From a virus: a DNA stretch of 40,037 bases. The position numbers and the translations under genes were made by a program. The stretch covers positions 1-40,037 of the IMG/VR virus record IMGVR_UViG_3300010397_001069. One strand, written 5' to 3'. Under the pieces are notes generated by a model. The model had not been told where the DNA came from. It worked only from the letters and a program-made list of their open reading frames with translations, and ran no database searches. The stretch's first letter is position 1; each line of letters opens with the position of its first letter. Of this stretch, positions 1 to 40,037 are shown piece after piece.

Positions 1-840
1 ATGGACACCCTGTTTGCTGAGTTCCTACGAGAGAAACTATACATAAAAAATCTCTCTCCGAAAACCAAAATTTCTTACAGTCAGGCTTTCAAGTGGTTTA
101 GCGGTACTGAATTGTCTAAACCTGGACTCAACGCTTTCATCTTAAAGATGCGTGAAGGCGGTCTTTCTCCAGTTACTTGCAACATCTATATCAGGGCTAT
201 GAATTCGTTTCTTAGTTGGCAGTATGAGAACGGCCACATACGTGAGCCGCTCAAAATGAAACAGCTTAAAGAAGAGAAACGAGTCAAAGAACCATTCAGT
301 GATGATGAAGTCTCAAGACTACTGTCTTACAAACCCAAGACCTTTTATGAGTGGAGACTCTATGCTCTGGTCTGCACTCTCATTGATACGGGATGTCGGA
401 TTGAAGAAATCCTGACTCTAAAGATGACGAATCTGGACTTCGATAACCTACTCGTTAAGGTGATTGGCAAGGGCAACAAAGAACGCGTGGTGCCGATGAG
501 CTTTGAGCTTCGAAAGGTCTTGTTCCGATTTCTCCAGAAGCGAGGTGATAAGTTGGGGCTCTATGTCTTCGCTAGTCGGACTGGTGGCCGGCTCTCCTAT
601 TGGAATATGACCCGCGACTTTCAGAATCTCTGTAAGAGCGTCAGTGTTCCCTACAAGCCTTTCCACTACCTGCGGCGGACGTTTGCTAAGAACTACATCA
701 CTCAAGGTGGGTCGTTGTTTATGCTTCAACGTTGCCTAGGACACGAGTCAATTACGACGACTCAACGGTATGTTTGCTTGAACGTCGAGGATCTGAAAGA
801 GACTCATTTAAGGACTTCGATTCTCAGTAGACTCAGATGA
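1..840 (+). CDS. Tyrosine recombinase / phage integrase (XerC/D-like)
   Basis: A 279-residue site-specific recombinase that would cut and rejoin DNA through a 3'-phosphotyrosine link, for integration and excision or for resolving multimers. The N-terminal SAM-like core-binding domain spans about residues 1-90, with the catalytic domain after it. The full catalytic set is visible: R133 in TGCRIEEIL, K157 in the GKGNKER beta-hairpin, H222 and R225 in HYLRR, H248 in LGHES, and the nucleophile Y257 in TTQRY. Length matches Xer-like enzymes of about 280-300 residues. The ATG is the first base of the window, so the promoter and ribosome site are unseen and an earlier start cannot be excluded. It stands alone on the plus strand and is followed by a gene-poor stretch with an inverted repeat. 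Confidence 0.93.
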   Translation: MDTLFAEFLREKLYIKNLSPKTKISYSQAFKWFSGTELSKPGLNAFILKMREGGLSPVTCNIYIRAMNSFLSWQYENGHIREPLKMKQLKEEKRVKEPFSDDEVSRLLSYKPKTFYEWRLYALVCTLIDTGCRIEEILTLKMTNLDFDNLLVKVIGKGNKERVVPMSFELRKVLFRFLQKRGDKLGLYVFASRTGGRLSYWNMTRDFQNLCKSVSVPYKPFHYLRRTFAKNYITQGGSLFMLQRCLGHESITTTQRYVCLNVEDLKETHLRTSILSRLR

Positions 841-6249: not shown

Positions 6250-6301
6250 CTGACTTTATGATTCTAACACAGCGTCACTTCTGGTCATAGCTCCGTGTCC
6301 T

Positions 6302-6613: not shown

Positions 6614-6638
6614 AATATGCTCCTGAGACTGCGGACAC

Positions 6639-10446: not shown

Positions 10447-11169
10447 TTAGATGTCGATATACTTGTTCAAGACAGGGTTGAGTTTCCCCGTTGCTTTGAA
10501 CTGCTGGAACGGTGGTAGGGCTTTGAAGCTGGACGTGAAGGCGTTACTGAGGCTCCACATGCTCCGGTCCTGGAACTCGTCGTATTCGGGCTGGAAGTAG
10601 TGGTGGTGAACTGAAGGCAGAAGCTTTAAAGGCGCTAAGTGATCCACGAAGACATCGTAGATGATTCCCTTAGCCTGGGCTTCTGCGAGCTCAAACTCTT
10701 TCCACTGGTTGATGGTCTTTTGAAGCGGCTCGAAACTTCGTTGAATCCTATCGACTCCAATTGAGAGCGAGTCGATGAGGTTGAAGTTCTTGGAGTGCTT
10801 AGAGAGGACGGGTGAGAAGTCGCCTTTGAAGGCCATGTTCGAACAGACGAACACGCGATAGCCTACAGTGAGAGCGAGTCTCATTGACTTGTCGTTGGCG
10901 TTACGGATGCCAATTGCAAACCGACAGCCGGTAAAGTCGTAATCGAGTTCCATTAGTCCAAACATCTTCATGCCGTCCTGTGAGACTGCGTACTCATCTC
11001 CAGCTACGTTGATGTGCCGGAAGGCAAGAGTCTCCATTAGAGCTTCGACAATCTTGATGTGTGCGATGGGTTGGTGAGTGAGTGTGGCGGTGGGAGCGGG
11101 GATCAGCGCGAGTTCTTCACGCGTGATTCTGTTGGTTCCTCTGCCCGCGATTAAAACGCTTTCAGTCAT
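10447..11169 (-). CDS. DUF932-family phage/plasmid protein
   Basis: 240 residues with an excellent start (AGGAGG before ATG 11169). The features fit the DUF932 / phage-plasmid-like family: a mid-domain with GDEYAVSQDGMKMFGLMEL, the IGIRNANDKSMRLALTVGYRVFVCSNMAF segment (conserved N, K and C-S-N pattern), and a helical C-terminal part. The family is common in phages and plasmids near recombination genes; its biochemical role is unsettled. Here it lies upstream of small genes and downstream of a strong hairpin at 11200-11215, so it may be separately transcribed or attenuated. No zinc motif or catalytic residue is evident. Confidence 0.8.
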   Translation of the reverse strand: MTESVLIAGRGTNRITREELALIPAPTATLTHQPIAHIKIVEALMETLAFRHINVAGDEYAVSQDGMKMFGLMELDYDFTGCRFAIGIRNANDKSMRLALTVGYRVFVCSNMAFKGDFSPVLSKHSKNFNLIDSLSIGVDRIQRSFEPLQKTINQWKEFELAEAQAKGIIYDVFVDHLAPLKLLPSVHHHYFQPEYDEFQDRSMWSLSNAFTSSFKALPPFQQFKATGKLNPVLNKYIDI

Positions 11170-16013: not shown

Positions 16014-17434
16014 GAGAGCGGGCTGCCGTCTAAAACAAAAGGTCTTAAGGTTCCTGACACGGCTTGTGGGCCAAGCCGGAACGAGACGGCATAATTTAAT
16101 GATTGAGCAGTAAAGGATTCGCCAACGGATATTGATTCGCTGAACTGGGCGAACTTCTGAAGCAGGATATTCTCTGTATCTTTGATTTGCTCGCCACTTT
16201 GTCTTAGTTGGTTAATGAGGAAGTCAATTAAGGTAATAGTTTTCAAGGTCGCGAGTTCAACTCGATACATTCCAACGTTCTTACTAACCATTGAAAATGA
16301 AACTCGCTGAATGAGGAAGTCTTCGCTTACGGCCCGTTGAGTCGAGTTGACGGTGATTAACTGTCCGCTGCGAAGTCCTGAATTGTAAGTGGTGAATGAA
16401 CCTTCGGAGATCTTGGCGGCGTAAGCCTCAAGCTCGGCAATAGCGAAGTCTTTCGCTTCTTGCTTGCTGGTGATTGTAGTGTCGGTGCGTGCAAACTCTG
16501 ACGCTCCGTAGGTTGCTATCGAATCCGTATCCTCGACTTGGACCAAAATGTCATATAGAGGGATTCCCGTTACCTCGACGTTATTGGTCCCTGAAGCGGG
16601 CGCTGAGGTGAACTTGATATAGGTTTCATTGAAATTCCAGAGCACATCAAAGTCTGCTTCATCGTCAAGAAAATCCACACCAACGGTTTTACCTACGCCC
16701 CCGACTGTTACTGTAGGCAGGCTGGAGAATTTATTCGAGAGCTTGAAAAATTTCTTTGTCCCGTCGCCATTGAAAGGCTCTGTGCGCGCGTCGCCTTCGG
16801 CTTCTCCACCTCGGATAAAGACTCGATTGCGAAGCTGAGAGATGTCTTCGGATACCTCCAATGAATCATAGATATAATTCGCTGAAGTATCTGAAATGCT
16901 GAAGGGTGCTGCCTCAGTATTCTTCTCAAAGAAGTGAATGTCTTTGTTGTAGTCAACGTACCAAGAATAATTGGAAAGCCTGGCAAGCTTCTGTAGAGCT
17001 TCAGTAACGCTTACTCGATTGAACGTAATAGTCTCAACCGACACTGGGGCGTTGACGTTAGTGGTGGTGAAAGTCGGAGCGTAATTGGTAACGAGGTCAT
17101 CGATAATGTCATTGATAGTCGTGCTGGTATAAGTCTCGGCAACCAGAACTCGGTTTAAGTAAAAACCATTATCAACGCACTCACATTCGTATCGAACGAT
17201 AGAGTGTCCATCAGTGACCTTACGGACTGTGAGAATTAGTCCTTTATAAACAGTCGTAGTATCTAGCAGTTCAACTGTATCGCCTACTGCGGGTGTAAAG
17301 GTAGAACCGGCGTGGTAGTTGACAGCGAAATTGAGTGTATCAACCTTCTCATTAAGGACATCTGTCATCTGCAAGGTGTTCCAAAGCACCTTACTTGTCC
17401 TGTCGGTCCCGTTTATCTTCAGAGTGATGTTCAT
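16010..17434 (-). CDS. Tail tip / baseplate hub-like protein
   Basis: 474 residues, overlapping the tape measure stop by 4 bp. The N-terminal 100 residues (LKINGTDRTSKVLWNTLQMT, then GDTVELLDTTTVYKGLILTV) match the opening of siphovirus tail-tip/hub (gp27-like or ReqiPepy6 Gp37-like) proteins: a beta domain with a Y-K-G-L-I motif. A middle domain has SVTEALQKLARLSNYSWYVD, typical of the hub fold. The C-terminal part is helical and then beta. It should form the ring at the tail end that docks the fibres. The position right after the tape measure supports this. Confidence 0.8.
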   Translation of the reverse strand: MNITLKINGTDRTSKVLWNTLQMTDVLNEKVDTLNFAVNYHAGSTFTPAVGDTVELLDTTTVYKGLILTVRKVTDGHSIVRYECECVDNGFYLNRVLVAETYTSTTINDIIDDLVTNYAPTFTTTNVNAPVSVETITFNRVSVTEALQKLARLSNYSWYVDYNKDIHFFEKNTEAAPFSISDTSANYIYDSLEVSEDISQLRNRVFIRGGEAEGDARTEPFNGDGTKKFFKLSNKFSSLPTVTVGGVGKTVGVDFLDDEADFDVLWNFNETYIKFTSAPASGTNNVEVTGIPLYDILVQVEDTDSIATYGASEFARTDTTITSKQEAKDFAIAELEAYAAKISEGSFTTYNSGLRSGQLITVNSTQRAVSEDFLIQRVSFSMVSKNVGMYRVELATLKTITLIDFLINQLRQSGEQIKDTENILLQKFAQFSESISVGESFTAQSLNYAVSFRLGPQAVSGTLRPFVLDGSPLS

Positions 17435-18819
17435 ACCTGGGCGTTGCGCATTATCGCTTTCATAATCTCTTTGCCTATCTGTTCGGCTATTCCCTCACGT
17501 CCGAGAAAAGTATTTCCGGTAAGGTTGATGACTATCGACCCAGATCCGGCCCCGGATATCGAACCGTAGGTGGAAGGCGTAAATAGTTCCGGTCCGTTCT
17601 CGCCTACGATAAACGACCGCATTGGAGAAACAGCGCCGCCAGAAGCTCTGCCGACGACATTGCTGATTGCGTTGCCGACTGAACGGCCCGCTGAACCGAT
17701 AGCAGAACCAATGCTGGATAAGGCATTTTTGACTTGGTTTATCTTGTCTATAAGCGGTTGGAAGAATGCAATTATGGAGTCGATGGCTTCACTGAAGATT
17801 ATCTTGATTCCATCCCAAGTCTGACGGAAGAATTCCTTTGCTCCGCCTACTGCGTCCATCGCATCTTTTACTTTGAGCGCCATCAAGACAAGCGCCGCAA
17901 TAAGTAAGACGATTGGATTGGCTGCTATGAAGGCTAGTACTGTTCCAAGCACTGAGAGGGCGGTAATCAAGCCGGGAAGCAGTAAGCCCAGTGAGCCAAC
18001 GACTAAGACAAGTCCGCTTATTCCAGCGGCGGCGGCTAATATGCCGGCTGCCAGTTGCGGATGTTTGCTAATCCACTCTGCGATTTTCTCGATGATGGGC
18101 GTGATCTTTGCGGCTAATTGCTCAAGTGCTGGAGCTAGCGCTTGACCAATATTCTCTTCGAGGTTTGAAAAGGTCTCCTTCAGGATTTCGCTCTTACCGG
18201 CAAGGGTGCCAGCGAACGCTACTGCTTGACCTCCGACTTTCTCTTGCAACACTCCGAGGGCTTCAAGTGGTGTCGCGGAATCCTTTATCATTATTCCGTA
18301 CTGAAGCAGGGCTCTTCCCTGTCCAGATAAGGCGAGGGTGATAAGCTTGGTGGAGGTCTCTAAGTCGAGCCCTTTGGCTCGTGCCAAATCCATCGCCAGG
18401 GCTTGCAGCTTGTGCGCTTGAGTGAGGTCGTGGGTTCGTGCGTACAGCAACGCCATTGACTTTTCAGCTTCTTCATCATCAAAGCCAAGCTGTATTGCCG
18501 CTGCGCCCGTTGCCAAAATTGCTTTCCTTGCCTCTTCGAAAGTCGGCAAGGTTTCTCCGGCAGTGGCATGAATTGCCTTTAAGGTGGCGTCCAAGCTCGC
18601 CAGCTTAACTTCCGCATCACCAAACGCTTTTACTGATGCATAAAGTACGCTGCTAACTGCGGCGAATCCCGTAGCTCCAGCAACCGCCATGCTTTTGAAA
18701 GCAGGCTGCATAGCCTGGAGCTTGCCTTTAACCTTATCCAACGAACCACCAACATTGGCGATGACTTTGCTAGCTTTGTCTTCGGCTGTTATGACTGCTT
18801 TAAGTTGTGCGTCGGCCAT
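17431..18819 (-). CDS. Tape measure protein (short)
   Basis: 462 residues, recognised by its long helical, Ala/Gly/Leu-rich N-terminal half (ASKVIANVGGSLDKVKGKLQ), hydrophobic central segments at about 255-320 (several membrane-like stretches such as GLVLVVGSLGLLLPGLITAL), and the typical C-terminal RASGGAVSPMRSFIVGENGPELFTPS motif. Tape measure length sets tail length. At roughly 1.5 Å per residue this gives only about 70 nm, a short siphovirus tail. The start overlaps the end of the GT frameshift product by 20 nt, as in lambda-like phages. Confidence 0.92.
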   Translation of the reverse strand: MADAQLKAVITAEDKASKVIANVGGSLDKVKGKLQAMQPAFKSMAVAGATGFAAVSSVLYASVKAFGDAEVKLASLDATLKAIHATAGETLPTFEEARKAILATGAAAIQLGFDDEEAEKSMALLYARTHDLTQAHKLQALAMDLARAKGLDLETSTKLITLALSGQGRALLQYGIMIKDSATPLEALGVLQEKVGGQAVAFAGTLAGKSEILKETFSNLEENIGQALAPALEQLAAKITPIIEKIAEWISKHPQLAAGILAAAAGISGLVLVVGSLGLLLPGLITALSVLGTVLAFIAANPIVLLIAALVLMALKVKDAMDAVGGAKEFFRQTWDGIKIIFSEAIDSIIAFFQPLIDKINQVKNALSSIGSAIGSAGRSVGNAISNVVGRASGGAVSPMRSFIVGENGPELFTPSTYGSISGAGSGSIVINLTGNTFLGREGIAEQIGKEIMKAIMRNAQV

Positions 18820-26505: not shown

Positions 26506-27759
26506 TTAGGAAGCGGCTTGAGTCTTTAAGACGGTCACTGCGCTTGGCAAAGCCAAGACGTAACCAACACGTTCGACAATGCGAATGGCGGTCATATCTT
26601 GTTCTGCCAAATTGATGGCGGTAGAACCATCAGTGTCAGTGATAGTAGCTTCAGTCAACACTTTGACGCGCAATTGTTGCTTATCGCCAAAGATGGCAGC
26701 TTGCTTCAAGTTGCCGAACATAACGAATGGCTTGCTGTTACCAGTCGTGGTAACGGATGGCATAGCTTCAGAGAGCTCTACAGGGTAGCCCAAGATTTGA
26801 GCTGGGTTCCCTTGTGAGGCTGGGGTGAAGATGAAAGCGCCTGTACCATCGCCATTCTCTCTTAACAAACGTAGCTTTGAGAGAACAGTGCGATGCATAT
26901 AGAACTTTGCGCCATTGAGAGCGCCACTCGGGGTGGCATCAATAACAGCTTGTAGGTCTTCGACAGTTACATCCGCAGGGTCAGTGCTGGCAGTGTTTTC
27001 GATATTGACAGAGGTATTGTTGATAATACCTGTCCACGGAGAACCGGTGCCGGCGAAGAATTGTAAGTCTTCTTCTTTGGATACAGCTTCAGCGAACAAC
27101 TCAGATACTAATTGAGTGAGGTTCAACTGAGAGTCTTCTAAGATTTCGTCAGTGAACGGAACGATAGCAGCGAGTTTCTTCAACGTTTGAGTGACGAGAG
27201 AGAAACCTGGCTGAGTGGAAGTTTTCTTCGCACCCTCGTTCGTCCAGTAAACTGAAACTGAAGTGCCTAAGGCCGGAATGGTGCGGCTGTTACCTGGACC
27301 ACTAAAGGGCAGGTAACGCATATCGCGGCGAGCCAAACCATACTGGTCAGCTGCTACGCGGAGGATTTCATTCCTTAATTCGATAGGGATCAACAATCCC
27401 GCCTGAGCATCATCAGGGCTTCCACTATCGCTTTCGTTAGTGGTGAGAGCTTTTAAGGTAGCAGTGTCGTTAGCGAACAAAGCCTTCATGAAGGTCTTTG
27501 TTACGTCACGAGTTTTATCGACTTCAGGTTTGCCGGTGTCGATGGCTTTCTTGCGCTGCTCAGCAACGCCGGACATAAACTTCTCGGCAATTTGGGTTGC
27601 CATGCCGTCAATCTTTTCTTGGATTGACTTGGTGATGAGGGCTTTGACAGCGGCTTCATCAACCTCGTCGGTAGTAGCGGGAACTTCTACCTCTGGAGTT
27701 TTGGGAGTTTCAACTACCGGGGCTTCAGCTTCGGGTTGAACTTCTTCTTTGGTTTTCAT
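26506..27759 (-). CDS. Major capsid protein, HK97 fold
   Basis: 417 residues. Residues 1-115 form an acidic, Pro/Glu-rich and then helical delta/scaffold-like region that the protease should remove. The HK97 core follows: AGLLIPIELRNEILRVAADQ, then MRYLPFSGPGNSRTIPALGT, VYWTNEGAKKTSTQPGFSLV, KKLAAIVPFTDEILEDSQLN, and FFAGTGSPWTGIINNTSVNI. The A-domain and P-domain motifs are as in HK97/phi1026-like capsids. The order protease then capsid is canonical, 11 bp apart. Confidence 0.95.
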   Translation of the reverse strand: MKTKEEVQPEAEAPVVETPKTPEVEVPATTDEVDEAAVKALITKSIQEKIDGMATQIAEKFMSGVAEQRKKAIDTGKPEVDKTRDVTKTFMKALFANDTATLKALTTNESDSGSPDDAQAGLLIPIELRNEILRVAADQYGLARRDMRYLPFSGPGNSRTIPALGTSVSVYWTNEGAKKTSTQPGFSLVTQTLKKLAAIVPFTDEILEDSQLNLTQLVSELFAEAVSKEEDLQFFAGTGSPWTGIINNTSVNIENTASTDPADVTVEDLQAVIDATPSGALNGAKFYMHRTVLSKLRLLRENGDGTGAFIFTPASQGNPAQILGYPVELSEAMPSVTTTGNSKPFVMFGNLKQAAIFGDKQQLRVKVLTEATITDTDGSTAINLAEQDMTAIRIVERVGYVLALPSAVTVLKTQAAS

Positions 27760-28516: not shown

Positions 28517-30601
28517 TTAAACGACAGGCGCTAAGACGCAGCGACAATTCACGGTTTCTGAGGCATCGCCGGAGTCATCGCCGGGGTACATGAGGCCATT
28601 AGCGAATTCTTGGTCAGTGGGGACGATTTCACCGTTGATGGCGAGGTGTGAATCTCTTGTCCGCTCATCCACGGTAGCAACCCATTCTTTTTGGGTAACT
28701 ACGGCGCTCTGATTATATGCTTCTATGAAGCCTTCGTTATTTGCAGCAGTGGATTCAGTACGGGCGATTGTATCAGAGCGATAAGTCGGGAATTCGTCGT
28801 ATACGGCGCTTACCCGGTCTGAGAGTTCAGTGATTCCTTCACCTGAATTAATGCCTTCAGCTAGCGTAACGGAGAGTTTTTCTAAGGTAGTGTCGTTGAT
28901 GGATACAGCAAAGAATTTGGCCCTGTCTTTGAGTTTTTTTTCTAGAGCGGCTGTGTATTCAAACGTCTCTCCGGTGCCAAGTAAATCAAGTGCATCTTGG
29001 CCTGATTCAGTAGCGGCGTCGGCAAGAAAAGGGAAAGCTAATTCAGCGAAAATCTGATTCTCTTTTTTCTTGTCGAATGAGATAGGTAAGGCTTTCTCTT
29101 TGCCGCTCATGACGTAATCAACAAGGTCGATTGCACCGATTTCACCTTTCTTAAGGCTTCCAAGCACCCGCTTTTTCTGTCTGACAGATTCAGCTTCAAC
29201 AGCGGCCTTGAACTTCTCGGCTCGCTTGTCGATTTTCTTATTTACAAATAGCTCATACTGCAGGCGAACGGTTTTGTCTTTAAGTAAAGATCCTTTCTGT
29301 TTCTTCTTGGGCTTTTTGAATGCCTTATAAAGGTCATCAGCCAAGCCTTCAATCATCTCTAACTTGGCTTTTAGGAGATGGCGGCCTTTGAATATCTTTT
29401 GTGAGTTATCTTCAGCAGCAAGTGGTGGCGCATTAATAGGTGAGAAGCCAAGGGGAGTATATAAACTGTCGCCTCCATCAATCGGTTCTAGGTTTAAGGA
29501 TTCGCGAATTTCATTTCGCGTAATCCACTTGTCTACACCTTGAGTGAATTCTTGGAGCTTCTGGGCGCGATCTTCAGGTGTTGGGTCGGTGAAGTCAACA
29601 TAGAAGCGTTCGCCAAAATCAGGAGTGACGAGCATTTCATTAATGACTTCGACTAAAGCGGAGATTTCTGGCTTGATGGTTTCGGACAGGAAAGTGCGAA
29701 GCCCTGAATTTGCGTTAGCTAGGTTTACGTCATCGGTCGTAATAACAGACTTCGGTACGCCAAAAGCTACTAAGATGTCGTCACGTGTGAACTTCAATGA
29801 TTCAATGTAGTCCATCTCCTTTTGGGTGACAGAGACTTGCTGGTATTGCATACCACCTTCAAGGATTCCAATTCGGGAGTTCTTGCCTCGGCCTCGATGC
29901 TTAGTGTCCCAAGCTACGCGCAGTTGGTCGCGCTGTTCTGCGTCTAGTTCATCCTCAGAAATAAGCAAAGCATCAGGACGCGCGTTGTTTAAGAAAAAGT
30001 CTCTTTGGAAACCGGTTGCGTATTCTTCTGTTTGGATGCGTGACTGTGAAGGCTTAAGAGGCGAGAGTCCGCGGTAGATATCTAGAGGATTGGGTTCTTT
30101 GAAGTGAATGATATCTGATGGTTCAAAGGTGTCCTTTGTTCCGTCGAGCTTTTGAAATTCGTATCGCTTAATGAAGGTCTGTTCGTCAGGAACGACAACC
30201 ATGAAATCAGGGCGAAGGTTCCACAGCTCAACTACCTGGCCTCTTTGGTTTCTTACCTTGTACCAAAACGCTTCCCCTGTCAGCTTTTTGTTGATTGTGG
30301 TTATCTTCCAGAATTCTGAGCGGGTCTGGAACGGATTAGGCCGGTAGAGTAAATCTAGGACTTCGTGCGAAGGAATATCTTGCACTTCTCCTTTAGAGTT
30401 GACGATTTGAAACAGCTTCAGATCAATAGCAGAAATTTTCTGCGCTATCTTATTGATGGCAGCGAAGACGTATAAGGACTTCTCGTATTGGTGGATGAGC
30501 TTGCTAGTGGCCCAAGCACCTCCGCCAAAGACCCTCGCTAGTTCTTGTAAGCCTACGAATTTTATCTTTCTACCTCCGAACAGTTTGTCTATGAATCCCA
30601 T
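28517..30601 (-). CDS. Portal protein fused to a MuF-type minor head domain
   Basis: 694 residues, much longer than a simple HK97 portal of about 400. Residues 1-400 are the portal: KSLYVFAAINKIAQKISAID, EVLDLLYRPNPFQTRSEFWK, DIIHFKEPNPLDIYRGLSPL, GILEGGMQYQQVSVTQKEMD, and GVPKSVITTDDVNLANANSG. Residues 420-560 are charged helices. Residues 600-694 are a MuF/SPP1 gp7-like domain: PTYRSDTIARTESTAANNEG, KEWVATVDERTRDSHLAING, ending in SETVNCRCVLAPVV. The portal is the dodecameric DNA entry ring; MuF proteins are usually separate. The fusion would place one MuF domain on each portal subunit. Confidence 0.92.
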   Translation of the reverse strand: MGFIDKLFGGRKIKFVGLQELARVFGGGAWATSKLIHQYEKSLYVFAAINKIAQKISAIDLKLFQIVNSKGEVQDIPSHEVLDLLYRPNPFQTRSEFWKITTINKKLTGEAFWYKVRNQRGQVVELWNLRPDFMVVVPDEQTFIKRYEFQKLDGTKDTFEPSDIIHFKEPNPLDIYRGLSPLKPSQSRIQTEEYATGFQRDFFLNNARPDALLISEDELDAEQRDQLRVAWDTKHRGRGKNSRIGILEGGMQYQQVSVTQKEMDYIESLKFTRDDILVAFGVPKSVITTDDVNLANANSGLRTFLSETIKPEISALVEVINEMLVTPDFGERFYVDFTDPTPEDRAQKLQEFTQGVDKWITRNEIRESLNLEPIDGGDSLYTPLGFSPINAPPLAAEDNSQKIFKGRHLLKAKLEMIEGLADDLYKAFKKPKKKQKGSLLKDKTVRLQYELFVNKKIDKRAEKFKAAVEAESVRQKKRVLGSLKKGEIGAIDLVDYVMSGKEKALPISFDKKKENQIFAELAFPFLADAATESGQDALDLLGTGETFEYTAALEKKLKDRAKFFAVSINDTTLEKLSVTLAEGINSGEGITELSDRVSAVYDEFPTYRSDTIARTESTAANNEGFIEAYNQSAVVTQKEWVATVDERTRDSHLAINGEIVPTDQEFANGLMYPGDDSGDASETVNCRCVLAPVV

Positions 30602-30711: not shown

Positions 30712-31851
30712 TCAGATGAAAGTTAGTTTTGGTTTGGGTTTGTGCAGGGTCATGGCGTAGCGGATAGCGTCCATGCTATGCGAATAAAGGTGGTCGGGTT
30801 CGTTGATTATTTTCCCTGCCTTGTCAGTCATCCAAATGTAATTTCGGTATTCCTTAATAAGGTTGGTCGACCGTTTTGTAACTGCTATGTTTTGGGATTG
30901 AACGTGCTGAATGCCCTGGAGGACTGAGCCTTGTCCTTTGATTGAAGGAATGATTTTTACGCCGTAGGACTTAATTTCATCTATGCTTTTTGGCTCGGCT
31001 GAATCAGCTATGACTAAAGCTTTAGGTTCTTTGAGCAGGATGTCGGCTATCTGTTTGTTCGATAGCCCTTTTTGAAAAGTAATCTCATCTAGTATGAATC
31101 CATTGTTGTGGTAATAAACCGCTACTGCTGCGGTGGGGTCGTTCGTATACCCAAAGTCTAATCCATACTTCTCTAGCCTGGCTTCCTCGGGTACTGAATC
31201 AATAATCTGCCAGCCGGTGTATATGCGTGATTCGATTTCTCCTAGTTGTCCTTCACCATAGACTCGCCACCAACTCTTGTTGCCTCTACGCTGTTCGATT
31301 GACTTAACAATCTCAGGGTCCAGCGCTTCGTTATCCTTGTAGGTGGTGATGAGATGGTCTATGTCATCCCGAACTCCTTGAACGTCTGTGTAGAACCAGA
31401 ATTCGGTGGTGGGGTTCCAATCTAAGTAAACAAATTGGTTGGTTCTAACCTCAAGCTGGTTGAACGCATCAAGGGTTATGTTGTTGGCTTCGTTTATGAA
31501 AAGTCTGTCGCGCCTAGCTCCCCTTAGCTTGTCTCCGTCATCTGATGAAAAGAATTCAATCTGGCTTCCAGTCTCAAACGTGTAAATTGAATCAGTGGCA
31601 TTCCAGCGGAAGGGGTTCCAGTATCTATGCTCGTGCATGATTTTCTTGAAATCACGCATGGCGCCGCGCTTGAGATGAGGAGTGGATTCGCTAACTACTG
31701 ACGTTAGCGTCGGCTTCTTGTCGCTCTGGGCTGCGTGAATCAACAGCAGGAGTATCGAGACTGTCTTGCTTGCTGACGTTCCTCCCTGAACTGCTCGTAT
31801 CCGCGATTTCAGCTTGGCTATTTTGGTTGTCGCCGTTGTGAGTTGGAACAT
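30712..31851 (-). CDS. Large terminase subunit (Terminase_3-like)
   Basis: 379 residues. ATPase: Walker A GGTSASKT at 23-30, Walker B RLFINEAN at 116-123 with E121, and a coupling segment VYLDWNPTTEFWF. Nuclease (RNase H-like): D232 in YGLDFGYTND, D283 in LVIADSAEP, and D361 in HSMDAIRYA. It pumps DNA into the prohead and cuts the concatemer. At 379 residues it is at the short end for the family but complete. The first 54 codons, including Walker A, overlap the small-subunit gene in another frame. No ribosome site is visible, so re-initiation coupling is likely. Confidence 0.93.
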   Translation of the reverse strand: MFQLTTATTKIAKLKSRIRAVQGGTSASKTVSILLLLIHAAQSDKKPTLTSVVSESTPHLKRGAMRDFKKIMHEHRYWNPFRWNATDSIYTFETGSQIEFFSSDDGDKLRGARRDRLFINEANNITLDAFNQLEVRTNQFVYLDWNPTTEFWFYTDVQGVRDDIDHLITTYKDNEALDPEIVKSIEQRRGNKSWWRVYGEGQLGEIESRIYTGWQIIDSVPEEARLEKYGLDFGYTNDPTAAVAVYYHNNGFILDEITFQKGLSNKQIADILLKEPKALVIADSAEPKSIDEIKSYGVKIIPSIKGQGSVLQGIQHVQSQNIAVTKRSTNLIKEYRNYIWMTDKAGKIINEPDHLYSHSMDAIRYAMTLHKPKPKLTFI

Positions 31852-32191
31852 TCATGGTTGCTAATATGGGGATTGGTGCGCCGTCTGGACCGGTGAACTC
31901 ATTACGTTGAGCGAACTCATTCTTCTTCTTCCGTTCCAAGTACCATTGGGCTGCTTGCGGCTGTTTGAGACTCCTAACCACTGTGGTCCTTGCTAGCAAT
32001 ATTGGAGTTTCTTTGAGTTTCTCCTTACGCTCCGCAAACTCTGGGTGCTCTTGTTGGTAGTCGTATAGAGCGGTCTTAGAGATATCTGCATAAAGGCAGG
32101 CTTCGAGGTCCGTACAACCCATTGCAAAGGCTTCATCTAGTTTACGGAGAACTTCGTCCGTCATTACACTCGGTCTTCCTATTTCTGCCAT
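31691..32191 (-). CDS. Small terminase subunit
   Basis: 166 residues. The N-terminal DNA-binding part has an HTH: RPSVMTDEVLRKLDEAFAMG, then TDLEACLYADISKTALYDYQ, and EHPEFAERKEKL, the phage terminase small subunit (Terminase_2/HTH type). A central helical oligomerisation region (VVRSLKQPQAAQWYLERKKK) follows. The last 54 residues, rich in S, D, N and Q (SSSGRNVSKQDSLDTPAVDS), overlap the large subunit's Walker A region out of frame and are probably disordered. The ATG adjoins the previous stop. Confidence 0.85.
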   Translation of the reverse strand: MAEIGRPSVMTDEVLRKLDEAFAMGCTDLEACLYADISKTALYDYQQEHPEFAERKEKLKETPILLARTTVVRSLKQPQAAQWYLERKKKNEFAQRNEFTGPDGAPIPILATMNVPTHNGDNQNSQAEIADTSSSGRNVSKQDSLDTPAVDSRSPERQEADANVSS

Positions 32192-33278: not shown

Positions 33279-33302
33279 GATCACAGCTGTACTTGTACGG
33301 AC

Positions 33303-33929: not shown

Positions 33930-34008
33930 TAAACATACGTACTGCATTCGCGACGGCTACTTAATCTGTCTTATTGTCCTAGCCCACTTCTTCGGGATTA
34001 GGATAAGG

Positions 34009-34625: not shown

Positions 34626-34629
34626 CTCT

Positions 34630-34761
34630 ATGAAGCTCAAAACTAGAATCATCAAACTATGGAAAAAGGGTATGAGCAAGCGGGCAATAAGTATAAAGGT
34701 CGGTTGCCAGCGCTCATACGTTCAGAAAGTTATCAAAGTACACTTATCCAATCTACTATGA
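34630..34761 (+). CDS. 43-residue helix-turn-helix protein
   Basis: ATG 34630 to TGA 34761. 43 residues: MKLKTRIIKLWKKGMSKRAI, SIKVGCQRSYVQKVIKVHLS. The core I-I-K-L-W-K-K-G-M-S-K-R-A-I-S-x-x-V-G-C-x-x-S-Y-V-Q-K-V-I is a textbook minimal HTH as at the end of resolvases and transposases. It is very short for a free-standing regulator but could bind DNA as a dimer or complement another protein. The TGA overlaps the next ATG (ATGA). Confidence 0.72.
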   Translation: MKLKTRIIKLWKKGMSKRAISIKVGCQRSYVQKVIKVHLSNLL

Positions 34762-34937
34762 AACATAGAATGAACTGTAAGCACTGTGGCCGGGGATTCC
34801 TTGCGGAGCCTTGGGACAAGCACTCTCTCCTGCATACGTGCTTCAAGGCTCGGTGTGAAAAGGAAAGCGGGATCTATTCAAAACCTAATAAACAAGCCAA
34901 TGTATCAACATTATTATCGTTATCCGAAGCGGCATAA
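34758..34937 (+). CDS. 59-residue zinc-finger-like protein
   Basis: It starts at ATG 34758, overlapping the HTH gene stop. Residues 6-30 contain NCKHCGRGFL and HTCFKARC, giving C-x2-C...H...C-x4-C, a zinc-binding core, followed by a low-complexity tail. A longer frame from 34659 exists but would overlap the HTH gene entirely, so the coupled ATG is preferred. The 3' end overlaps the following membrane-protein gene by 38 nt. The function is unknown. Confidence 0.68.
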   Translation: MKHRMNCKHCGRGFLAEPWDKHSLLHTCFKARCEKESGIYSKPNKQANVSTLLSLSEAA

Positions 34938-35031
34938 CTTCTTCATCCACTCAGTCCTTCCTTACCTTATCTGTATAGCTTTTGGAGCGGGAATCGTATT
35001 ACTAGCCTTTTATCAAATGCGGCCAGTATGA
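34900..35031 (+). CDS. 43-residue single-pass membrane protein
   Basis: From ATG 34900: MYQHYYRYPKRHNFFIHSVL then PYLICIAFGAGIVLLAFYQM. A basic, tyrosine-rich N-terminus is followed by one membrane helix at about 19-37. A longer frame reaches back to 34786 but lacks a ribosome site and would run across the zinc gene. The stop TGA overlaps the next ATG (ATGA). Confidence 0.6.
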   Translation: MYQHYYRYPKRHNFFIHSVLPYLICIAFGAGIVLLAFYQMRPV

Positions 35032-35183
35032 ATCACACACATAAAACTTGGGAAGAGATCCGCGCCTGTACTATCAACTTTGGCGAGTGCTGGGACAAAG
35101 CCTGGTTGAACAAGCCTGACCGGACTGGGAATATGGACCCTCACCGGAGCCCTACTCTCGGCTATCAAAACTTCACTAATTAA
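35028..35183 (+). CDS. 51-residue hypothetical protein
   Basis: ATG 35028 overlaps the previous stop; TAA 35183. It has 51 residues: MNHTHKTWEEIRACTINFGE, CWDKAWLNKPDRTGNMDPHR, SPTLGYQNFTN. Two cysteines and two N-terminal histidines could bind metal, but the spacing fits no known finger. No family is recognised. Confidence 0.58.
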   Translation: MNHTHKTWEEIRACTINFGECWDKAWLNKPDRTGNMDPHRSPTLGYQNFTN

Positions 35184-35192
35184 CAAAGAGCA

Positions 35193-35366
35193 ATGCAACC
35201 TAAATTAAAACCGCTTAAACAAGACATATATGCCAACAAGGTCGTGGGTGTCTGCCCGAATTGCGGAAGTCCTCTCTATGGTCACTGGCAGATGTCTGGC
35301 CGTGAGGGTGAGATTATTCCGTTTATTCGTTGCCACTCCTGCGGCTACTCCGAGGCCGAAGTATGA
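35193..35366 (+). CDS. 57-residue zinc-ribbon protein
   Basis: ATG 35193 with AAAGAG about 5 bases upstream; TGA 35366. The protein has CPNCGSPLYG and RCHSCGYSE, a classic two-knuckle zinc ribbon (C-x2-C about 20-23 and 48-51) with a beta segment between. Such ribbons resemble the nucleic-acid-binding ends of transcription factors and phage regulators. The stop overlaps the next ATG. Confidence 0.75.
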   Translation: MQPKLKPLKQDIYANKVVGVCPNCGSPLYGHWQMSGREGEIIPFIRCHSCGYSEAEV

Positions 35367-35587
35367 AACCAGCTAAGACAATCTTTGGTCACTACAGCTA
35401 TCTTGCTCCAGGTGACGACCACGACAACAACAGTCAGATAAATAATCCAGATATGGTGCGTATCCGCCGGATCAGAGAGAAAGCTTTATCGGCTATATTG
35501 GCCTATGAACGCTTTATCAATAAGGCTGACCGAATGATTAAACTGGTAGAAGAGGCTTGTAAGAAAAACAATGGCTTGCCGTTTTGA
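35363..35587 (+). CDS. 74-residue helical protein, last of the small-protein operon
   Basis: It starts at ATG 35363 (ATGA overlap) in preference to an out-of-context earlier codon at 35330. The N-terminus is loop-rich (HYSYLAPGDDHDNNSQINNP), and the rest is one basic helix (VRIRRIREKALSAILAYERF; INKADRMIKLVEEACKKNNG). No known family. A TTAGTC/GACTAA stem near 35609-35626 may end the operon. Confidence 0.65.
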   Translation: MKPAKTIFGHYSYLAPGDDHDNNSQINNPDMVRIRRIREKALSAILAYERFINKADRMIKLVEEACKKNNGLPF

Positions 35588-35721
35588 GGCAATCGCTAGC
35601 GATATTCATTAGTCTGTTTTGACTAAACTGAAATCTAACCTCTATCTTGAGAGTAAAGCATATTACAGATAAATAAAAGCCCTTAAATGCTGGGGCAAAC
35701 CAGCAAGAAACAAAAACACAA
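35588..35721. other. Gap with two short hairpins
   Basis: Besides TTAGTC-TGTTTT-GACTAA (35609-35626), GCTGG/CCAGC faces each other near 35688-35705. Neither is followed by a clear T-run. No gene is seen in either strand. Confidence 0.4.
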
Positions 35722-36180
35722 ATGGAACCTGACCACTTCCACTCACCTTTATTCGGCTGTCTCCTGCGATTCAAGCGCACGCAAAACAAGAGGTACAGCC
35801 CTGGCTCAACGGCAAACCAGTATGTAAGGCAAGCCTACTGCAGAATCCATAAGATTACTCTCTGCTTTTGTGGTTGGGAGTATGGCTGGCATTACGGGAT
35901 AAGTAGTGAACCCATACTGCCGGCGCAAATACCAAGTAAGCCTGTCCTTCAATTCTCACTAGACGGAGGTCTGATAGCTGAACACCCCTCCATCGGATCA
36001 GCTTCCAGAACTGCGGGGCTCACTCCCTATTCAATCAAGTTGTGTATGCAAGGGAGAATCAGAATGGCCGGTGGGTATGTATGGAAAGCTAAAGCAGAGC
36101 CCTCAATCGCTCCTTCATCACCGCCTCCTTCGGACTCTTTGCCCCTCCCCTTAACCACTCCTGAATCCGTGTTGGCGTGA
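35722..36180 (+). CDS. NUMOD1-containing protein
   Basis: 152 residues. Residues 72-118 match NUMOD1, a DNA-binding helix module of homing endonucleases: PVLQFSLDGGLIAEHPSIGS, SASRTAGLTPYSIKLCMQGR, and MAGGYVWKA. The N-terminal 70 residues contain cysteine and aromatic residues (YCRIHKITLCFCGWEYGWHY) but no GIY-YIG or HNH motif, so no nuclease is present. The tail is Ser/Pro-rich and overlaps the opposite-strand gene at 36089. The ribosome site is weak. It may be the DNA-binding remnant of a homing enzyme or a repurposed regulator. Confidence 0.6.
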   Translation: MEPDHFHSPLFGCLLRFKRTQNKRYSPGSTANQYVRQAYCRIHKITLCFCGWEYGWHYGISSEPILPAQIPSKPVLQFSLDGGLIAEHPSIGSASRTAGLTPYSIKLCMQGRIRMAGGYVWKAKAEPSIAPSSPPPSDSLPLPLTTPESVLA

Positions 36181-36361
36181 TTGTGTGAGTAACTGAGCTT
36201 CGGACTTCTATCTCAAGATTGCTTGCTGGTCCTGGCTCGCATTGGTGCTGACGGAACGTGCGAATGGCTAGTACACCTGCCTCGTATAGCGTGTCGGCCT
36301 GAACCTCAACACTATGACGCAAGCCCGATGTATCCACGAATGAGACGATGCAGATAGCCAC
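36089..36361 (-). CDS. Small hypothetical protein of environmental-bacteria type
   Basis: 90 residues from GTG 36361. MAICIVSFVDTSGLRHSVEV, then QADTLYEAGVLAIRTFRQHQ, LEIEVRSSVTHTITPTRIQE, and KSPKEAVMKERLRALL. I recall a family with this S-x-x-D-x-x-G-x-R-H-S-V-E-V...L-Y-E-A-(A/G) layout as a frequent hypothetical protein in Acidobacteria and Proteobacteria; this is from memory. It may thus be a host-derived cargo gene. The end overlaps the plus-strand NUMOD1 gene tail by 92 nt in antiparallel. Confidence 0.68.
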   Translation of the reverse strand: MAICIVSFVDTSGLRHSVEVQADTLYEAGVLAIRTFRQHQCEPGPASNLEIEVRSSVTHTITPTRIQEWLRGGAKSPKEAVMKERLRALL

Positions 36362-36454
36362 GCGGCTAAAATATCATTTTCGATTATTTTCGACAATTCA
36401 GAGCGCCAGGTTTGGGCGGGAACAACGCCGATACGTTTTCGTACATCTTAGCGA

Positions 36455-36484
36455 GGGGTGAGTGAACCACCCCGTATATATAAT
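36455..36484 (+). promoter_or_regulatory. Promoter with operator-like palindrome
   Basis: TATAAT at 36479-36484 is a consensus -10. In the -35 region there is no TTGACA but the palindrome GGGGTG-AGTGAAC-CACCCC (36455-36473). A regulator binding here would control the two small genes that follow. ATTTTCGA is repeated twice near 36377-36393, upstream. Confidence 0.6.
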
Positions 36485-36502
36485 GAAAACGGAGAAAACA
36501 CT

Positions 36503-36589
36503 ATGGAACCGAATGCAACGCCTGACGGCGCTCTTATCTACTTCACAGGTAGAACTTGGAACCGGATACCTCGCTTCAACTTCAAGTAA
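36503..36589 (+). CDS. 28-residue leader-type peptide
   Basis: GGAG lies 8 bases before ATG 36503; TAA 36589. It encodes MEPNATPDGALIYFTGRTWN and RIPRFNFK. The next gene starts inside it at TTG 36556 in another frame. This could be a translated leader whose translation affects the downstream membrane protein. Confidence 0.45.
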   Translation: MEPNATPDGALIYFTGRTWNRIPRFNFK

Positions 36590-36774
36590 AGTTTATTGTT
36601 TCGACGCTAGTTGGAGTCTTAGTACTCTTGGGATTGACACTTTCAGGGAAATTCGGCGGTTTACAGTTCACAGCCGCCCTAATCGCCCTAACATACACTT
36701 GGTCAGAAGTCTTCTTTCAGATAGCAGACGAACGCAACGACTACTTCTTCAAACTTCCTCGGATCTTCGAGTAA
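36556..36774 (+). CDS. Small two-TM protein
   Basis: 72 residues from TTG 36556, six bases after AGG. Two hydrophobic helices: about 10-32 (VKFIVSTLVGVLVLLGLTLS) and about 37-55 (LQFTAALIALTYTWSEVFF), with an acidic/polar C-terminus (QIADERNDYFFKLPRIFE). It is a candidate holin, superinfection-exclusion protein or toxin. The gene is followed by a strong terminator at 36827. The frame starting at 36462 shadows it. Confidence 0.62.
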   Translation: MEPDTSLQLQVKFIVSTLVGVLVLLGLTLSGKFGGLQFTAALIALTYTWSEVFFQIADERNDYFFKLPRIFE

Positions 36775-36826
36775 ATATACACAGACTACATTGAGTTACC
36801 TGGAACTCTTCAAGTGAAAACCCGGG

Positions 36827-36848
36827 ACCCCGCCCAGTGCGGGGTTTT
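36827..36848 (+). terminator. Intrinsic terminator
   Basis: CCCCGC (36828-36833) and GCGGGG (36839-36844) flank a CCAGT loop and run into TTTTGCATTTTT. It is a strong stop for the plus-strand unit 36503-36774. Confidence 0.9.
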
Positions 36849-36863
36849 GCATTTTTATAGGGA

Positions 36864-37215
36864 AGCTCCCCTCGAACTTAATCAAGAGGAGCTACAAAAC
36901 TGACGGACCAAGCAAAATCTTCCTAGTACAGGGCCGTACCGCTTTCAACCATTGGGTAGTTTGAAATCAGAAGACCTAACACCGAGCTACCCTGTCACTC
37001 GGCATTCCCGCAAGCTAACTCATTATCTTGAGTCTCTCCAATACGGGCTCTGCCTTTTTAACAGGTCGGGGCTTATTCCGTCTTGAAAGACATTATAGCA
37101 AACTGGATAACTGTGCAGGATACAAGGGACTGGCTGTGTACAGGCTCGGTCGCTTGAGCGTCATCTTAGCTCTCACAAATGTTCTCTTCGGATAGTATCT
37201 CCAATATGTCATATG
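36864..37215. other. Gene-free stretch with hairpins
   Basis: About 350 bp with no convincing gene. AGCTCCCCTC (36864-36873) faces GAGGAGCT (36886-36893); GGGTAG/CTACCC enclose about 40 nt near 36955-36994; GGCTCGGTCGCTT at 37143-37155 has an exact inverted partner at 37588-37600. A folded RNA is possible, but I could not fit any tRNA or known RNA. Confidence 0.35.
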
Positions 37216-37401
37216 CTATCTGTAAATTCTGTCATACTCTGATTCACCCTCTGCAATGTCGTTCAACTTCGCAAGCACGTTCACTGTTTGTCGTCGGTTA
37301 TAATTGTCTTTAGCCTTAACTGCTATTTCCATTCCCTCTCTCAATGTCTCAAACTCACTCTCTTCTATCTGAAACTTAAAAATCTTCTTATACTTCTTCA
37401 T
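37216..37401 (-). CDS. 61-residue helical regulatory-type protein
   Basis: 61 residues from ATG 37401 (MKKYKKIFKFQIEESEFETL), chosen for GGGAAGG seven bases upstream; longer frames to 37497 have no ribosome site. The body REGMEIAVKAKDNYNRRQTV then NVLAKLNDIAEGESEYDR is helical and charged. A promoter TTGCAA/TATGTT (17 bp) lies near 37420-37448, with a DnaA-like box further upstream. It sits beside the candidate origin, so a copy-control or partition role is possible, but no known family is recognised. Confidence 0.6.
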   Translation of the reverse strand: MKKYKKIFKFQIEESEFETLREGMEIAVKAKDNYNRRQTVNVLAKLNDIAEGESEYDRIYR

Positions 37402-37487
37402 CTGACGACCTTCCCTATTAAACATAGAAAACTCACTCGACCTTTGCAAACACTTAGAACCCCCGAAAACTGGAACAAACACCCAAA

Positions 37488-37666
37488 CTATCCACAACCT
37501 TAGCTGCTGAACTCAGAACAAATCCTGTGCATAACATCAACAAACTCACCATCACCAAAATAATCATCTTCTGCTTGAGCGTAGCGAAAGCGACCGAGCC
37601 GCACACTGGCGCATAGTTATCCATCAGACGGACGGCGACTTTTAGCCGGACGGCTGTGGATAACTA
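37488..37666. other. Candidate replication origin: DnaA-type boxes and palindrome
   Basis: Within 180 bp: CTATCCACA at 37488-37496 (one mismatch to TTATCCACA), TGTGCATAA at 37526-37534 (exact TTATNCACA), and TGTGGATAA at 37655-37663 (exact). The 10-mer TAGTTATCCA (37614-37623) is perfectly inverted as TGGATAACTA (37657-37666), enclosing two GGACGGC repeats. The block is gene-free and lies between a small helical protein and the relaxase-like gene. Alternatively it is a regulator's operator array. Confidence 0.5.
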
Positions 37667-38029
37667 CATCACTCAATTTCTCTGATTCCTGTCTTAGAAC
37701 TTGGAAGTTCTATAAGTAACAACAAACGGCCCGTGCCGTCGAATTGAGTTCGCCCTTCAGACGGATTTGGGTGCGCTTGTAGCGCCAACCCAAGACCCCG
37801 CTCCCTGATAACCGATATCAAGAATCCTCGTACTACCCGTCAGTCGTTCTTTTGAATTCTCTGAATCCAAACCCATCTTCGGAACGACGTATCTCAGCGA
37901 CCAACGGAAGCGGAAATCGAGAATCATTTTCCCGCCCTCCGTCATAGAGTTTGATAGTTTGTAACTTTATTAGAAACCGACTTTAACAAGACAAATAGTG
38001 CTTGGCGGTTTGTACAAAGTTTGTACTCG
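37667..38029. other. Mostly non-coding stretch before the relaxase-like gene end
   Basis: It contains a long imperfect hairpin, TTGGGTGCGC against GCGCCAACCCAA (37767-37793), and two TTTGTAC repeats (GTTTGTACAAAGTTTGTACT, about 38008-38027) close to the stop of the relaxase-like gene. Only one small frame (37757-37927) is plausible. A nic site or oriT could lie here, but no known nic consensus is recognised. Confidence 0.4.
37757..37927 (-). CDS. Possible 56-residue protein
   Basis: The frame from ATG 37927 follows GGAGGG by seven bases, the only support. It reads MILDFRFRWSLRYVVPKMGL, then DSENSKERLTGSTRILDIGY. It has mixed composition, no motif, and its 3' end lies over the TTGGGT hairpin. 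It may equally be non-coding. Confidence 0.3.
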   Translation of the reverse strand: MILDFRFRWSLRYVVPKMGLDSENSKERLTGSTRILDIGYQGAGSWVGATSAPKSV

Positions 38030-38836
38030 TTATTGGTAGCGATTTGCGAGCTCGTCAAATGAGTAAACAGCCCCTAAAGGACTGGCCAAAATGCTATTCG
38101 TGGGGTGGTTGGTTATCCAGTCAACGCAGGTGAAAAGACACATCTCTCCGGTGCGTGCTTCTTGTATTAATCCTGCGATAGCCTCTCCTCGTTTCTTTTG
38201 TTTATCCAGTCGGGTGGCTTCCTTCTCGGCGGGGTCCTTGATGAACTTCACTGACAGGTCTTTGCAGTAGTCCTGGACCACAAAGATGACGTGGAATGGT
38301 CGCTTAAGGTTCTGGCTGTAGCGTTCGTACTTCTCAATCTTGCTGCGCAGGATAGAGGTACCCTCACTTCCTCTGTCCGCCTCCAAAAAGAACTCGGCTT
38401 CCCCGAATCTAACGTACCTATCCGGCTTTAGCTGGAGCCGTTCCAGCGTCTCGCTGCGCGGTACGCCCCAATGTGTGAACGTCCCCCAGTACGCCGTGAA
38501 GATGTCGGCGCACATTATCTCGTGCTGGTAGAGGTCGAATTTAAGTCTGTCGGTATCAGGAAGCATCCAGAGGTCGGGATACTCCTTGTAAGGTGAAGGG
38601 TGACGCTTAAGTTCAGGCTTCTTTCTTTTTCCGCGCCTGTCTTTTGCCGCCGCTAGGTCCCGAAGGATTCGGAGCGTCTGTTGATACCCTGGGGGATACT
38701 GGTACTGCGAACCTGACTTGTAGATCTTCAAAGGACTCGTTGCGTGAGGGTACGCTATCCGTGCGAGCTGCTGGGCGGTCATCCGCTTTTCGAGTTCGAG
38801 GGCTCTTAGTATTATGATGCGTTGGTCGAGCGTCAT
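38030..38836 (-). CDS. Replication-relaxation (relaxase-like) family protein
   Basis: 268 residues from ATG 38836 (a TTG at 38908 would add 24). The N-terminal winged helix reads RIIILRALELEKRMTAQQLA, RIAYPHATSPLKIY..., QQTLRILRDLAA. The C-terminal domain has the family's core: KPDRYVRFGEAEFFLEADRG, SEGTSILRSKIEKYERYSQN, PFHVIFVVQ. E-A-D-R-G-x-E with a following K-x-x-x-Y resembles a restriction-like fold and is the hallmark of the Replic_Relax family of plasmids and integrative elements. Nicking activity is reported or presumed for some members and not shown here. It overlaps the TraG-like gene by 224 nt in another frame. Confidence 0.8.
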   Translation of the reverse strand: MTLDQRIIILRALELEKRMTAQQLARIAYPHATSPLKIYKSGSQYQYPPGYQQTLRILRDLAAAKDRRGKRKKPELKRHPSPYKEYPDLWMLPDTDRLKFDLYQHEIMCADIFTAYWGTFTHWGVPRSETLERLQLKPDRYVRFGEAEFFLEADRGSEGTSILRSKIEKYERYSQNLKRPFHVIFVVQDYCKDLSVKFIKDPAEKEATRLDKQKKRGEAIAGLIQEARTGEMCLFTCVDWITNHPTNSILASPLGAVYSFDELANRYQ

Positions 38837-40037
38837 CTGGTGTTTTGTATATCGGATTCTTATAAATCTGTTCAAGGTAGGGTTTGATATCGACTTGGAT
38901 ATCCGCAACGTCCGGCACCCTTACCAACATCGGTTGTTGTTTTGGCTTCTTGATAACGCAGTGCTGCTTTCTCAAATTTGATAGAGCATAAGAAACGTCC
39001 CTATCCTTAAGCTCACCTCCGTACATTGCCTTTACGGTTTCGAGTCTCTCGGCAGCATCGGGCTGGAAGAAGGCTACTTTAATTTTGCAGAGTTCTTTGA
39101 CTGCTTCTGAGATGTAGGGGTCTTCAAACTGTCTCCAATACTGGTGTGCAAGTACCACGCGGAGGCCAGACTTGCGCTTATAAGCAAGAAGGTCTGCCAG
39201 ATTTCGGTTGGCATATCTGCCGGCTTCGTCGAGGTAGAGATAATATACCCCACGCCAATTCCCAGCCCGAAGCCTGTCAATAGCAGAGATAATTTCATTG
39301 ATGATTAGTGTTCCAAGTAAGCGAGTGTGGATGGGTTCAAACCCGAACCCTGAATAAAGATTGACTAGAATTACCCACCTGTCTGCTATCAGTCTAGCAA
39401 AGTCTATCCCTTCAGTGTGGGAGAGCATTGTGGATAACGTCGGATGGAATAGTGGCTCAAGCCTTCTGACTGTAGACTGAAGCTCGTTTAAGTACATTGC
39501 CCTAGACTTGAAGACTTCCTCCAGAGCAAGGCGGTGTCTATCGGACTCGTCGCTCTGCTCAAGGATCTTCACACGTTGGTAAATGTATCCTGGCTCTGTA
39601 AAGTACAGTGAATCAGCGAGTGTGGCTTTAGCGCTCCACAAGACGGAAATGATGGCTGTTAAGTAACGTTGAATTCGGGCTGTTTCAGCAGCGTCCCGCA
39701 CGTTAAACAAAACGCGGAAAGTATCCTGCAAATTCGCTATGCTTACTTCCTTGTATTTTCCCAGCGGATTGATGGGAGCAACCTTGTTGTAGAGGTATCT
39801 ATGATGCGCGTCTATTACTAAAACTTTCTCGTGCTTCTTTTTGGCGCAGTAAGCTAGAACTTTGTACATCGTATCCCCTCTATCGGAGGGGTCAAAGAAT
39901 ACAAGCCCATTTCCTCGGTCGATATCTCCGCGAATCAACCACTCAAGGAATTTTGATTTACCTTCGCTCGTGGTCCCGATTATGTGAAGGTGAGACTGCC
40001 GAGCTTCTTCAGTAATAGTGAGGTCGGAACCATCCAT
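38613..40037 (-). CDS. VirD4/TraG-type DNA-translocating ATPase (5' end at window edge)
   Basis: 474 residues visible. Walker A GTTSEGKS at 21-28, Walker B VYYLYLDEA at 264-272 (D270, E271), and a sensor-like AHQYWRQF (Q299). Other segments such as VFFDPSDRGDTM, NLYSGFGFEP and RNLADLLAYKRKSGLRVVLA fit the coupling-protein/HerA-FtsK ATPase core. No membrane helices are present in the visible part. Coupling proteins often have an N-terminal membrane domain, so it may be truncated by the window edge, where the ATG lies at the last base. The last 75 residues are disordered (Pro, Ser, Arg, Lys-rich) and overlap the relaxase-like gene. It should pump or recruit nicked DNA. Confidence 0.85.
   Translation of the reverse strand: MDGSDLTITEEARQSHLHIIGTTSEGKSKFLEWLIRGDIDRGNGLVFFDPSDRGDTMYKVLAYCAKKKHEKVLVIDAHHRYLYNKVAPINPLGKYKEVSIANLQDTFRVLFNVRDAAETARIQRYLTAIISVLWSAKATLADSLYFTEPGYIYQRVKILEQSDESDRHRLALEEVFKSRAMYLNELQSTVRRLEPLFHPTLSTMLSHTEGIDFARLIADRWVILVNLYSGFGFEPIHTRLLGTLIINEIISAIDRLRAGNWRGVYYLYLDEAGRYANRNLADLLAYKRKSGLRVVLAHQYWRQFEDPYISEAVKELCKIKVAFFQPDAAERLETVKAMYGGELKDRDVSYALSNLRKQHCVIKKPKQQPMLVRVPDVADIQVDIKPYLEQIYKNPIYKTPDDARPTHHNTKSPRTRKADDRPAARTDSVPSRNESFEDLQVRFAVPVSPRVSTDAPNPSGPSGGKRQARKKKEA

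Follow-up and report, generated by a model that had tools for sequence, protein, structure and literature searches.

A predicted VirD4-like ATPase and a candidate MOBC-type relaxase form a conserved, overlapping operon in a lineage of temperate HK97-type phages

The pairing of a VirD4-like ATPase with a replication-relaxation protein is of a kind already known from Bacillus phages and from MOBC/VirD4 modules. The combination has been described in Bacillus phages (PMC9703825, PMC9658697), where a T4SS-like or FtsK-like ATPase accompanies a replication-relaxation protein as gp17-gp18 of the tyroviruses (Bacillus phages Thrax1-5) and likewise in Novomoskovsk and Bolokhovo, and a Replic_Relax protein has been reported in phage Kirov too (PMC9703825, PMC9658697, PMC10454425). 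In the tyroviruses both genes belong to a gp11-18 block that also encodes ParM (PMC9703825). The Replic_Relax family (PF13814) is grouped with the MOBC relaxases (PMC5357655), enzymes that have a catalytic domain of the PD-(D/E)XK restriction-endonuclease type (PMC12857230). MOBC relaxases such as TraX of pAD1 and MobC of CloDF13 are partnered by VirD4 coupling proteins. A comparable gene set, consisting of a serine integrase, a MOBC relaxase and a VirD4-type coupling protein, makes up class 8 of the streptococcal integrative and mobilizable elements (IMEs; PMC5357655). Both kinds of element move by conjugation and do so without capsid genes.

The 40,037 bases analysed here (the window) make up an entire IMG/VR record, which is classified as linear. 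Its terminase, portal, head and tail genes, baseplate hub genes included, all lie on the minus strand from ∼15 to 32 kb, and PHROGs matches confirm the major head protein, portal, both terminase subunits, tape measure and integrase (Table 1). With HK97 major capsid, portal, terminase and tail genes and an integrase all present, the record has the gene set of a temperate HK97-type tailed phage. Like the MOBC/VirD4 elements it combines a candidate relaxase of the PF13814/PD-(D/E)XK type with a VirD4-type partner, and like the class 8 IMEs it adds an integrase, so that integrase, relaxase and coupling-type protein all stand beside virion genes. It differs from these elements in its phage structural module and in that no VirB4 was found in it. 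The tyroviruses and related Bacillus phages are larger and, in the tyroviruses, ParM/RHH genes sit beside the pair, whereas the window belongs to a lineage of 40-kb HK97-type siphophages in which a DUF932 gene is present, the two genes overlap at length and several relatives encode a primase close by. In open-licence papers we found no description of the pair as a conserved, long-overlapping operon in small HK97-type temperate phages, nor of a soluble ATPase and a frequent primase accompanying such an operon.

Table 1. Coordinates of the features discussed, as positions in the window
Feature	Position	Strand	Evidence
Tyrosine recombinase (integrase)	1..840	+	PF00589 2e-31; phrog_1 3.5e-45
DUF932-like protein	10447..11169	-	PF06067 4.9e-4 (below gathering score)
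Tape measure protein	17431..18819	-	phrog_28 8.7e-25
Major head protein, HK97 type	26506..27759	-	phrog_10 3e-60
Portal protein fused to head-morphogenesis (MuF-like) domain	28517..30601	-	phrog_2662 6.4e-134
Terminase large subunit	30712..31851	-	phrog_2 7e-31; 688-bit homologue in pair-bearing record G785
Terminase small subunit	31691..32191	-	phrog_4102 7e-22
Replic_Relax (MOBC-type) relaxase candidate	38030..38908	-	PF13814 1.8e-9, 38.4 bits versus cut-off 25.3
ATPase C-terminal tail / relaxase N-terminal region overlap, two frames	38613..38836	-	224 nt with ATG start
VirD4/TrwB/TraG-type ATPase	38613..40037	-	PF10412, PF12696 and phrog_5156 matches; 474 aa as read

Both members of the pair were recognised by family searches, with all Pfam matches above gathering score. 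The ATPase matches TrwB_AAD_bind (PF10412, 3.9e-7), TraG-D_C (PF12696, 6.1e-6) and phrog_5156 (2e-13), and when it is aligned with ATPases from plasmids, genomes and phages its Walker A (G21/G26/K27) and Walker B (D270-E271) residues are invariant or nearly so, which bears out the earlier assignment to the VirD4/TraG type. The assignment of its neighbour as a replication-relaxation protein is equally upheld by the PF13814 match, and the EADRGSE core on which it had been based includes E176 and D178. These two residues form the putative active site together with D163, K190 and Y194. In an alignment of 20 viral sequences P162, D163, E176, E182, K190, Y194 and Y197 are invariant and D178 is conserved to at least 90%; in a mixed alignment of 24 sequences D163 is kept in all, E176 in 20 and K190 in 17, and D163 and E176 are present in all six of the closest phage relatives (K190 in five). 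AlphaFold models of the relaxase are of low confidence (mean pLDDT 48–53), and Foldseek with this low-confidence model returned no significant match. The better modelled part of it, residues 160–211, has a strand-strand-helix-strand core as in PD-(D/E)XK enzymes, and D163, E176/D178 and K190 all map to this core.

The two reading frames are co-directional and overlap, as had been described. Translation from the TTG at 38908 gives a relaxase of 292 aa, and translation from the in-frame ATG at 38836 one of 268 aa. The overlap with the ATPase is 296 nt for the longest ORFs and 224 nt from the ATG; in the six closest relatives the corresponding overlap (longest-ORF starts) is 104–287 nt.

The ATPase runs to the end of the record, and its relatives start ∼50 residues earlier. 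The record therefore probably ends inside the ATPase gene, with ∼50 N-terminal residues of the window copy likely missing, and the genome, which had been called complete, may not be. Hydropathy analysis predicts no transmembrane segment in the N-terminally incomplete window ATPase; since its N-terminus is missing, the absence of an anchor rests on the relatives, and by hydropathy none of the six closest has an N-terminal hydrophobic segment. Most ICE-type homologues do show a predicted N-terminal transmembrane segment. The VirD4-like ATPase of this lineage thus appears to be soluble and to lack a membrane anchor. As to a channel, VirB4 is likewise missing from the DUF932 regions examined, apart from one weak match to an ATPase already counted as VirD4-like, and without VirB4 the window lacks the complete mating-pair apparatus of an ICE.

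The pair sits right at one end of the record, and both record ends coincide exactly with an ATG, which points to a record trimmed to gene coordinates; we therefore asked whether the pair is an edge artefact. With the window ATPase, the relaxase and the integrase as queries, scans for close relatives among viral and genome contigs gave no matches, and profile and DUF932 queries were therefore needed. Most of the nearest portal homologues, from 52 viral loci, are without the pair, PF13814 being absent in 46 of their records. Two PF10412 signals among these portal-sharing records were rejected as not VirD4-like, one being an exonuclease-FtsK fusion (G013) and the other (G017) resembling it. The portal-sharing records had thus raised the suspicion of an edge artefact, which the DUF932 group overturned.

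The ATPase profile brought in record G739, which has the portal, capsid, tail and DUF932 genes in common with the window (56% identity for the DUF932-like protein) and the gene order VirD4, Replic_Relax, DNA primase, terminase, portal. The DUF932 gene as query retrieved 495 viral relatives. A relaxase profile search of 50 whole DUF932 phage records found a match in 14, and in 13 of these a VirD4-like ATPase adjoins or overlaps the relaxase; in G780 the relaxase signal lies inside the same 772-aa frame as the ATPase. In G736 the relaxase frame is 41271-42257, another ORF first taken as the relaxase having proved spurious. In G739, G779 and G785 the pair lies upstream of terminase and portal, with order and orientation as in the window, so it also occurs near terminase genes in other contigs, a check that the sequence-only reading had proposed. 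The six closest ATPase relatives (G766, 51% identity; G779, 41%; G786, 37%; G785, 35%; G787, 33%; G764, 33%) all belong to the 14 relaxase-bearing phage records, each overlapping its relaxase. No relaxase match was obtained in the remaining 36 of the 50 records, many of which are fragments, and the operon may therefore not be essential to the lineage.

The maps agree as well. The minus strand of the window reads ATPase, relaxase, terminase, portal, head, tail, DUF932, with small plus-strand genes between relaxase and terminase and the integrase at the other end of the record in the opposite direction. G779 has the order of the window, with a homologous integrase at its end, again in opposite direction, and in G764 a homologous integrase lies 2 kb beyond the ATPase and is divergent from it. 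Judged by gene order, window, G764 and G779 are circular permutations of one map, in which ATPase and integrase are divergent across the two ends of the window, and this map fits a prophage opened between ATPase and integrase. No att repeat was found between the record ends; the longest shared word is 15 nt, one copy of it inside the integrase gene. As the same pair recurs in the same order and orientation in phages that share the DUF932 gene, and as their maps agree, we conclude from these comparisons that a temperate-phage lineage, for which the predicted DUF932-like gene is a marker, has conserved the ATPase/relaxase pair as an operon at a fixed genome position. The recurrence at the same place in other records of the lineage also argues strongly against the chimera considered earlier.

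Further pairs were found in a large phage and in cellular genomes. In Bacillus phage SP8 (SPO1-like) a VirD4-like gene overlaps a downstream gene for a 274-aa PF13814 protein (4.7e-13); SP8 differs from the window in being a large phage (139 kb) with an ATPase of 906 aa, distant in sequence. SPO1-like phages are lytic, and a conjugative role of the SP8 pair therefore seems unlikely. The SP8 Replic_Relax protein (L080, 5460-6284) is a clear one, annotated as hypothetical only. An Embleya plasmid encodes ATPase and Replic_Relax protein, in this order and on one strand, beside genes for PrgI and an ATP-binding protein. In Acidobacteriota 12 ATPase loci have a Replic_Relax gene as neighbour, again in this order, and in Patescibacteria 17 of 21 Replic_Relax loci have a VirD4-like ATPase within the fetched 15–20 kb, nearly always immediately upstream; integrase, T4SS pilin and VirB4 genes occur there too, and no phage structural genes were detected near the Patescibacteria pairs. 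These ICE-like loci match the window in gene order and strand, often with overlapping genes, but their ATPases are mostly larger and membrane-anchored, unlike those of the window lineage, and in several VirB4, pilin or integrase genes are nearby. That the pair is known from conjugative plasmids and ICEs, as had been stated, is right in so far as those pairs are conjugation-type modules, and falls short in that the combination is not confined to them, being already described in Bacillus phages.

At least one VirD4-like ATPase similar to that of the window is present in 375 of 380 Patescibacteria genomes sampled versus 19 of 296 from Acidobacteriota. A Replic_Relax protein is present in only 38 of the same 380, so most Patescibacteria ATPases must serve in something other than partnering MOBC relaxases. 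Portal homologues of the window are found mainly in Patescibacteria, the integrase gives similar scores in Acidobacteriota and Patescibacteria, and the window ATPase sits on a long branch; together the homologues of these three proteins gave no consistent host assignment.

What the pair does in a phage we infer from its sequence, and this applies to nicking, translocation, origin use and the replicative role alike. On balance, and with modest confidence, we favour the view that it starts replication of the phage's own DNA by rolling circle, much as a relaxosome would. In such a mechanism the Replic_Relax/MOBC protein, as a PD-(D/E)XK-type nickase, would open a single strand of the phage DNA, excised and circular, at a putative origin; the apparently soluble VirD4-like ATPase would load onto whichever strand is nicked or displaced, act there as a DNA translocase and drive unwinding or strand displacement; and priming of the second strand would fall, in many relatives, to a phage primase whose gene is close to the pair. 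Such a gene, for a CHC2-type or a DNA primase, is indeed present near the pair in G739, G736, G760, G764, G771, G779, G783, G789 and G796. A use in phage replication is probable because there is no transfer channel and the ATPase seems to have no membrane anchor, and the absence of VirB4, the unanchored closest ATPases and the primase near the pair in relatives together favour a replicative role. The same observations agree with the earlier reading, which ranked a replicative or mobilisable role above self-transmission. Counting against replication, neither a primase nor an origin was found in the window, and the pairs of plasmids and genomes are conjugation-type modules.

The region beside the pair, where a candidate origin had been proposed, did not bear that proposal out. 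In 36800-38030 we found neither iterons nor any hairpin whose perfect stem reaches 8 bp, and at the proposed origin (37.4–38.0 kb) iterons are absent and hairpins do not exceed chance. Coding density is low in 33300-38000, with many short overlapping plus-strand ORFs (Zn-ribbon, HTH-like); in relatives this position holds a primase gene. For the short genes codon usage is uninformative.

A different use of the same proteins would be helper-dependent mobilisation, in which the relaxase nicks the excised phage genome and the VirD4-like ATPase hands the DNA to the T4SS of another element, the prophage doubling as an integrative mobilizable element. The window's integrase, MOBC relaxase and VirD4-type protein correspond to the IME class 8 set (PMC5357655), the pair is found in Patescibacteria ICE-like loci alongside VirB4, T4SS pilin and integrases, and two pair-bearing phages, G736 and G796, have ATPases with N-terminal hydrophobic segments. 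We nevertheless consider it rather unlikely, as the closest ATPases are without a predicted anchor, VirB4 is missing and no oriT was recognised. We found no support for the transfer function earlier suggested for the pair. A combined reading, with virion packaging and relaxase/coupling-protein transfer via a helper type IV channel as two exits and the same operon also starting replication, seems to us improbable. The description of the window as a phage-plasmid or phage/ICE hybrid survives as far as a mobilisation-type pair in a phage is concerned, but finds no support as to plasmid status: an integrase is present, and no partition (ParM/ParA/RHH) or plasmid Rep gene was found among the window ORFs scanned, a set that covered part of the small ones.

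That lack also bears on the idea of a post-replicative role, be it in segregation, in the processing of concatemers or in keeping the prophage extrachromosomal, as has been proposed for the tyrovirus block. The joint presence of ParM, T4SS-like ATPase and replication-relaxation protein in that block (PMC9703825) and an FtsK-like fusion in a related phage would suit such a role, whereas the missing ParM/ParA/RHH gene and the integrase speak against it, and we give it a low probability. Hardly credible is an origin of the pair in flanking host or ICE DNA, through an over-extended provirus call or a chimeric assembly: its place at the record edge, the ATG ends as in gene-trimmed proviruses and the commonness of VirD4-like ATPases in Patescibacteria genomes would allow it, but in independent phage records from other samples the nearest relatives of the two genes form the same operon, likewise placed, and the ATPase is 33–51% identical to phage proteins versus ∼25% to the genome homologues compared.

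The lineage offers a testable case of MOBC enzymes as phage replication initiators and of a VirD4-like motor that has neither membrane anchor nor channel; if helpers can also mobilise relatives, phage genomes would move by two routes. A relaxase/coupling-ATPase operon that tailed phages maintain connects the modules of conjugation with those of phage replication.

Several further genes were observed in the window and its relatives. A Stealth_CR2-like gene (32192-32911; capsular sugar phosphotransferase family, below gathering score) lies beside the terminase genes, and several portal-related phages have conserved it; the accessory region from integrase to DUF932 contains genes for a Mrr-type restriction endonuclease (6639-7655) and a trypsin-like peptidase (8581-9357). 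In six relatives a second VirD4-like ATPase is encoded near the relaxase on the same strand (G739 3805-5094, G771 5230-6621, G783 5160-6398, G789 38592-39809, G755 48486-49769 and G760 48153-49442), in G739 and G771 directly downstream.
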